This document shows, in pieces, positions 877-1,185 of a DNA stretch of 25,044 bases. This stretch comes from a virus. The DNA is taken from positions 1 to 25,044 of IMG/VR virus record IMGVR_UViG_3300005613_000392. One strand, given 5' to 3'. Each line of letters opens with the position of its first letter. Position 1 is the first letter of the stretch. A program made the position numbers and the translations under genes. The notes beneath the pieces were generated by a model that did not search any database, was not told where the DNA came from, and saw only the letters and a list, made by a program, of their open reading frames with translations.

Positions 877-1185
877 TTATTCACTCCAAGTTAGTTTTTC
901 TGGTTGATATCTTTGTACATTTTTAATTTTAGAAGTTTGATTTGTTGATGGATAAATGTTATGAACAATTGCTCCAGGATATTCTCCCTGCAAATGTTCC
1001 GCAAGTTCATTTTTATTCATCATACTTCCCTCAACTTCCATCCTATAAATTTTACCTTCCCAGACAACATCAGCAAAAAATGATTCTTTAGCAACTTCTG
1101 GTTCTGAACTATTGATATAAAGATTTCCGTTGAAATCTCCAGAGATATTTACTGACTCTGATAAAAATTGTTTAAAACTTTTCAT
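877..1185 (-). CDS. Small protein with capsid-targeting-like leader, candidate internal head protein
   Basis: This 102-residue protein begins MKSFKQFLSES. The pattern is M-K-S/T-aromatic-x-x-F-L/I-x-E. From memory, T4 internal proteins carry this type of capsid-targeting leader, which the prohead protease gp21 cuts after L/I-x-E. A cut after Glu10 would leave a 92-residue mature protein. Residues 36-80 form a small domain with Trp42, Gly44-Lys45, Tyr47 and Tyr69-Pro-Gly-Ala72. The same pattern occurs in the 484-aa protein encoded just upstream. One base separates its ATG from that gene's TAA, so the two are probably translated together. Packaging in the head is an inference from the leader. 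Another possibility is that MKSFKQF is only a common N-terminus of small cyanophage proteins with some other role. Confidence 0.8.
   Translation of the reverse strand: MKSFKQFLSESVNISGDFNGNLYINSSEPEVAKESFFADVVWEGKIYRMEVEGSMMNKNELAEHLQGEYPGAIVHNIYPSTNQTSKIKNVQRYQPEKLTWSE

Follow-up and report, generated by a model that had tools for sequence, protein, structure and literature searches.

The 102-aa ORF and its genomic neighborhood

The window, that is, the whole stretch of DNA analyzed here, is a 25,044-base linear fragment from an IMG/VR virus record. Its nucleotide matches in the phage collection are Synechococcus phages, cyanophages, and three marine viruses, and the isolate that best matches positions 1 to 1186 is S-SRM01. 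A block of head and tail genes is located on the minus strand and contains neck and sheath-stabilizer proteins, the terminase small subunit, a tail fiber, small ORFs, a 484-aa DUF6321 protein, a 102-aa ORF, and an incomplete virion structural protein (Table 1). The 102-aa ORF starts with ATG, and its sequence begins MKSFKQFLSESVNISGDF. Its coordinates, start codon, length, and N terminus, MKSFKQFLSE/S (the slash marks the predicted cut), agree with the original prediction, which had left the minus strand unstated. A Pfam search of the ORF returned no family.

TABLE 1 Features of the 102-aa ORF and adjacent genes in the window
Feature	Positions	Strand	Score
Virion structural protein, downstream of the 102-aa ORF, incomplete at contig end	2–871	−	phrog_1645, E 1.9e-110
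102-aa ORF, phrog_1742, function not known; leader plus 92-residue predicted mature protein	877–1185	−	PHROG E 2.4e-41
Predicted beta-beta-alpha-beta core domain, residues 35–79 of the 102-aa protein	949–1083	−	block pLDDT ~76–89
Leader MKSFKQFLSE, codons 1–10; predicted prohead-protease cut after Glu10, next residue Ser11	1156–1185	−	
484-aa protein, upstream of the 102-aa ORF, C-terminal DUF6321	1187–2641	−	
DUF6321 domain of the 484-aa protein	1199–1423	−	
Second copy of the core-domain family, within the 484-aa protein	1400–1651	−	
51-aa ORF, leader-like start MKSFKQFQEEW, noncanonical cut site	2638–2793	−	

The 51-aa ORF, MKSFKQFQEEWSNKYKKNIDCSNPKGFSQKAHCAGRKKR, lacks the canonical cut site and is conserved in relatives, where it also precedes the gene for the 484-aa protein; starts related to its own also turn up in the unconditioned viral-contig scan described below. 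No gp21 was found within the 25-kb window, which is a fragment of a genome. Of 11 related contigs, 6 had PF03420, the gp21-type protease family, as did S-SRM01.

Conservation of the leader

Homologs of phrog_1742 were found in 135 phage records of the phage collection, all of them cyanophages, and relatives of the 102-aa protein are encoded by at least 494 viral-contig stretches. In all 60 listed of the 135 records, the alignment to the 102-aa protein begins at residue 1. A homolog set was then assembled using a query stripped of its leader, which yielded 121 places and 90 distinct proteins. The motif M-K-[STN]-[FY]-x-x-F-[ILM]-x-E-[SA] was N-terminal in 90/90 of these proteins, so the leader is not a chance match; it sits at the most upstream ATG in 87, and the other 3 have a further in-frame ATG upstream. 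A degenerate form of the pattern occurred once in the window, at the leader itself; over 100 shuffles the average was 0.00.

In an alignment of 48 diverse members, M1, K2, F7, and E10 were invariant, position 4 was F or Y, position 8 was I, L, or M, and position 11 was S or A, with positions 5 and 6 variable among homologs. Synonymous codons vary freely across the leader, and both serine codon families are used at Ser3 and Ser11, indicating that selection acts on the protein sequence. According to mutations in T4 IPIII, positions 4 and 7 are the main determinants of targeting, and positions 8 and 10 govern processing (PMC9026906); these coincide with the constrained positions in the 102-aa family.

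The region past the cut site, SVNISGDFNGNLY, is conserved about as much as the leader, so the N terminus could serve another role. One such role would be that of a docking peptide for a different late phage structure or factor, with no part in capsid targeting. Conservation running beyond the cut site would fit such a peptide, as would starts of the leader type that have Glu at position 9 or none at all. We nevertheless consider it improbable, given that the pattern recovers two established internal proteins of T4, IPII and IPIII, and that the leader is associated both with gp21 and with proteins detected by mass spectrometry (MS).

Specificity of the leader pattern and its association with gp21

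Among 12 related records, the leader pattern gave 28 matches and the reversed pattern 0. The pattern was further searched in 13 named phages, across which the reversed-pattern control again had zero matches. Matches were found in 9 of the 10 tested T4-like phages that encode the PF03420 prohead protease (HTVC008M has gp21 and no match) and in 0/3 cyanophages without the gp21 protease (P-SSP7, Syn5, and P-SS2). The only matches in T4 were ipII, ipIII, and gp61.1. The last of these is a hypothetical protein of 54 aa (NC_000866, 18966-19130) that begins MKTFKEFIKE/D and, judged by this start, is possibly an unrecognized internal head protein.

Because earlier positional statistics were partly biased by loci that had been fetched with the leader, viral contigs were scanned under the sole condition of an MKTFxx[QE]F-type start. 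Among the matches listed, Glu was at position 10 in 72/121 and at position 9 or 10 in 107/121, whereas ~8% of other MK starts have Glu at position 10. Matching L-x-E sites also occur in the major capsid proteins of cyanophages (FLAE/A, LLTE/A, MLTE/A, and ILTE/T). The propeptide of T4 Alt does not fit the leader pattern, and some packaged proteins are therefore missed by it.

The proposed resemblance to the T4 internal-protein leader and gp21 cut site thus withstood these comparisons: the pattern finds IPII and IPIII, tracks gp21, and marks virion proteins. The prediction from sequence that MKSFKQFLSE is a capsid-targeting sequence of the T4 type and ends in a gp21 cut site is well supported.

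Leader-bearing proteins in virion proteomes

The MS proteome of S-CREM2 virions comprises 52 of 219 coding sequences (CDS) (PMC10665884), among them 5/5 of the annotated CDS that bear the leader: a SAM hydrolase, gp13, an APH-like kinase, gp136, and a cytidylyltransferase. The hypergeometric P of 6.5e-4 is post hoc and only indicative, since the leader regular expression was loosened after the sequences had been inspected. Detection of gp13 relied on a single peptide, and the authors warn that such proteins may copurify (PMC10665884). A virion-detected Cas9-like protein of the same phage (OR473000, 7704-10313; L236) has a leader-like FASFMAE/A about 20 residues past its annotated start. The leader-bearing NMNAT is virion associated by MS in S-SCSM1, S-SM1, and S-CREM2, and NMNAT/cytidylyltransferase is also reported in S-SZBM1 virions. 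The leader was found on many proteins, and most carriers that could be checked were virion associated rather than clearly nonvirion proteins.

The homologs of the 102-aa protein itself were not among the proteins detected in two published virion proteomes. In S-SCSM1, the only proteins with the strict leader are NMNAT and SSCSM1_30, the homolog of the 102-aa protein; that proteome (45 proteins, not deep) marks both neighbors of SSCSM1_30, namely, SSCSM1_29 and SSCSM1_31, as virion proteins but not SSCSM1_30 itself. SSCSM1_29, a virion protein by MS (PMC9602691), is the homolog of the 484-aa protein. Likewise, SSZBM1_191 is missing from the S-SZBM1 list of 30 proteins (not deep), which includes the neighboring product SSZBM1_190; the sequence of SSZBM1_191 offers several suitable tryptic peptides. 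For S-CREM1, the paper reports only 14 detected proteins. The S-SCSM1 and S-SZBM1 proteomes therefore give no direct support for the 102-aa protein itself, and the original claim of packaging stands in one part, the capsid-targeting type of the leader, and is not matched by detection of the homologs in the other.

An alternative is that the 102-aa protein acts in assembly, as a factor of the scaffold or core, which would enter the prohead by its leader, be digested or expelled at maturation, be absent from or rare in finished virions, and never be injected. Homologs that go undetected while neighboring gene products are found are what such a factor would produce; in T4, core proteins are cut up and most of the fragments exit the head (PMC9026906), and the gene is retained in the late structural block of many cyanophages. 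The leader, however, closes with one clean cut site near the N terminus, as expected where cleavage frees a mature protein, and NMNAT and other proteins with the leader are retained in virions. We regard an assembly factor as unlikely, though deserving of some weight.

A predicted core domain shared with the 484-aa protein

AlphaFold2 predicts a beta-beta-alpha-beta domain for residues 35 to 79 of the 102-aa protein, with low confidence for residues 8 to 31. This domain is common to the 102-aa and 484-aa proteins (hhalign probability 96, E 2.5e-9), and a distant copy is present in S-CREM2 gp137, which was detected by MS in virions. By direct count, the predicted mature protein is net acidic (8 K/R versus 13 D/E). 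The internal proteins of T4, in contrast, are characterized as basic (PMC9026906), a trait usual among them though not required of the class.

The first Foldseek match in the PDB was T7 Gp2 (E 0.066, probability 1.00), and YkzG, which interacts with RNA polymerase, was also listed. Alignment to T7 Gp2 with VIA-align gave Z 4.6 (49 residues, 2.5 A) and, for the sister domain of the 484-aa protein, Z 5.6, scores that unrelated chains, ribosomal and other, tie in both cases. These matches raise the possibility, compatible with packaging, that the mature protein is an injected binder of host RNA polymerase resembling T7 Gp2. Sequence identity is, however, ~10%, the domain also occurs within a 484-aa virion-type protein, and small cores arranged like this one are common; on the modeled structure, we consider such a function quite improbable. 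The reading as a Gp2-like RNA polymerase inhibitor was accordingly reduced, on account of the VIA-align ties, to a lead and not a function.

A diverse set of leader-bearing proteins

Across cyanophages and other viral contigs, the leader is present on dozens of unrelated proteins of many families. Pfam matches among them were GNAT acetyltransferase, DPBB/RlpA, HiPIP, ART-PolyVal, cytidylyltransferase, DUF6321, and DUF5661; one further protein matches a methyltransferase below the Pfam cutoff.

Several carriers merit individual mention. Five leader-bearing genes lie close together at L183:5915-9422 (minus strand); none has a PHROG match, and inspection by eye suggests an ART-like product, a product with an HExxH motif, and an HD-like product. 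A leader-tagged 67-aa protein that matches the HiPIP family occurs at L092:1501-1701 (E 4e-5), in L261, and in S-SRM01 at 47292 (L366). From its sequence it is a candidate packaged iron-sulfur protein, and a literature search found no cyanophage paper on such a HiPIP-like protein. A leader-tagged ADP-ribosyltransferase (ART) is encoded at L191:6037-6813 (ART-PolyVal, E 1e-23), and two more tagged proteins are ART-like by eye (L144:1211-1858 and L095:1501-2757); one of the three has an internal FITE/A site. These ART proteins are possible counterparts of T4 Alt.

DUF6321 also occurs alone behind a leader, in L174 and as the stand-alone protein SCREM1_179 of S-CREM1 (OP535465, 138886-139161; L375). 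The S-CREM1 gene sits two genes after the phrog_1742 homolog, which connects the locus with proteins of the head cargo or the core.

A model for packaging of the 102-aa protein

Overall, the 102-aa protein is probably one of the minor internal head (prohead-core) proteins of a T4-like cyanophage, cut after Glu10 and packaged. Evidence in favor of packaging includes the constrained positions that match T4 IPIII, the T4 matches IPII and IPIII, the association with gp21, the enrichment of Glu at positions 9 and 10, the five of five S-CREM2 proteins, NMNAT in virions, the capsid L-x-E sites, and the location in a head-tail block. Weighing against it are the homologs not found in S-SCSM1 and S-SZBM1 virions, the window without gp21, the conservation past the cut site, and an acidic mature protein where the T4 internal proteins are basic. 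On balance, packaging is likely.

In the model we propose, Phe4 and Phe7 would attach the 102-aa protein to the scaffold core, and the forming shell would thereby enclose it. A gp21-type prohead protease would then cut behind Leu8-Ser9-Glu10, leaving inside the head a product of 92 residues with a flexible N-terminal stretch (residues 11 to 34) and the small beta-beta-alpha-beta domain. This product would probably be ejected together with the DNA and might act early in the host.

The leader would, under the same model, be a portable tag common to many unrelated cargo proteins. There is a good case that one interchangeable ten-residue tag loads varied enzymes and effectors into the heads of T4-like phages of cyanobacterial and other aquatic hosts. 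The cargo would then likely include NMNAT, ADP-ribosyltransferases, acetyltransferases, proteases, RlpA-like and HiPIP-like proteins, a kinase, a SAM hydrolase, and the phrog_1742 protein. Since a single tag would precede such varied cargo, the cargo would be predictable from sequence alone.

T4 provides the known precedent for the tag, and the 102-aa protein is a new carrier of it. A literature search found no description of the tag in cyanophages; the sole paper that contained both terms was a T4 review, which proposes the tag idea for T4-like phages generally (PMC9026906). The wider tagged repertoire is of greater interest than the single protein. The proteins that marine phages carry into their hosts are largely unknown, and most genes of these phages have no function assigned. 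If head cargo can be predicted from such a tag, many "hypothetical" genes of cyanophages would become candidates whose packaging and injection can be tested.

Comparison with known systems

The cyanophage NMNAT/cytidylyltransferase (T4-GC190) carries the same leader in the same phages as the 102-aa protein. It belongs to an unrelated family and differs in size, and it has been detected in virions by MS, whereas the phrog_1742 homologs have not. T4 Alt, an ADP-ribosyltransferase, is trimmed by gp21, packaged, and ejected (PMC5694885), and its likeness here lies in the leader-bearing ART-like proteins of related viral contigs; the 102-aa protein is not an ART, and the Alt propeptide is six residues long and off pattern. 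The DUF6321 virion protein, represented by SSCSM1_29 and by the 484-aa protein of the window, is large, has no N-terminal leader in the window, and was detected in S-SCSM1 virions, but it has its core domain and locus in common with the 102-aa protein. The mature part of the 102-aa protein, net acidic and with a predicted beta-beta-alpha-beta core, has no similarity that we could see to T4 IPII and IPIII (capsid-targeting sequence MKTYQEFIAE). Its N terminus, in contrast, resembles theirs: the ten-residue leader has an aromatic residue at position 4, Phe7, a hydrophobic residue at position 8, and Glu10, and the residue that follows it, at position 11, is small.
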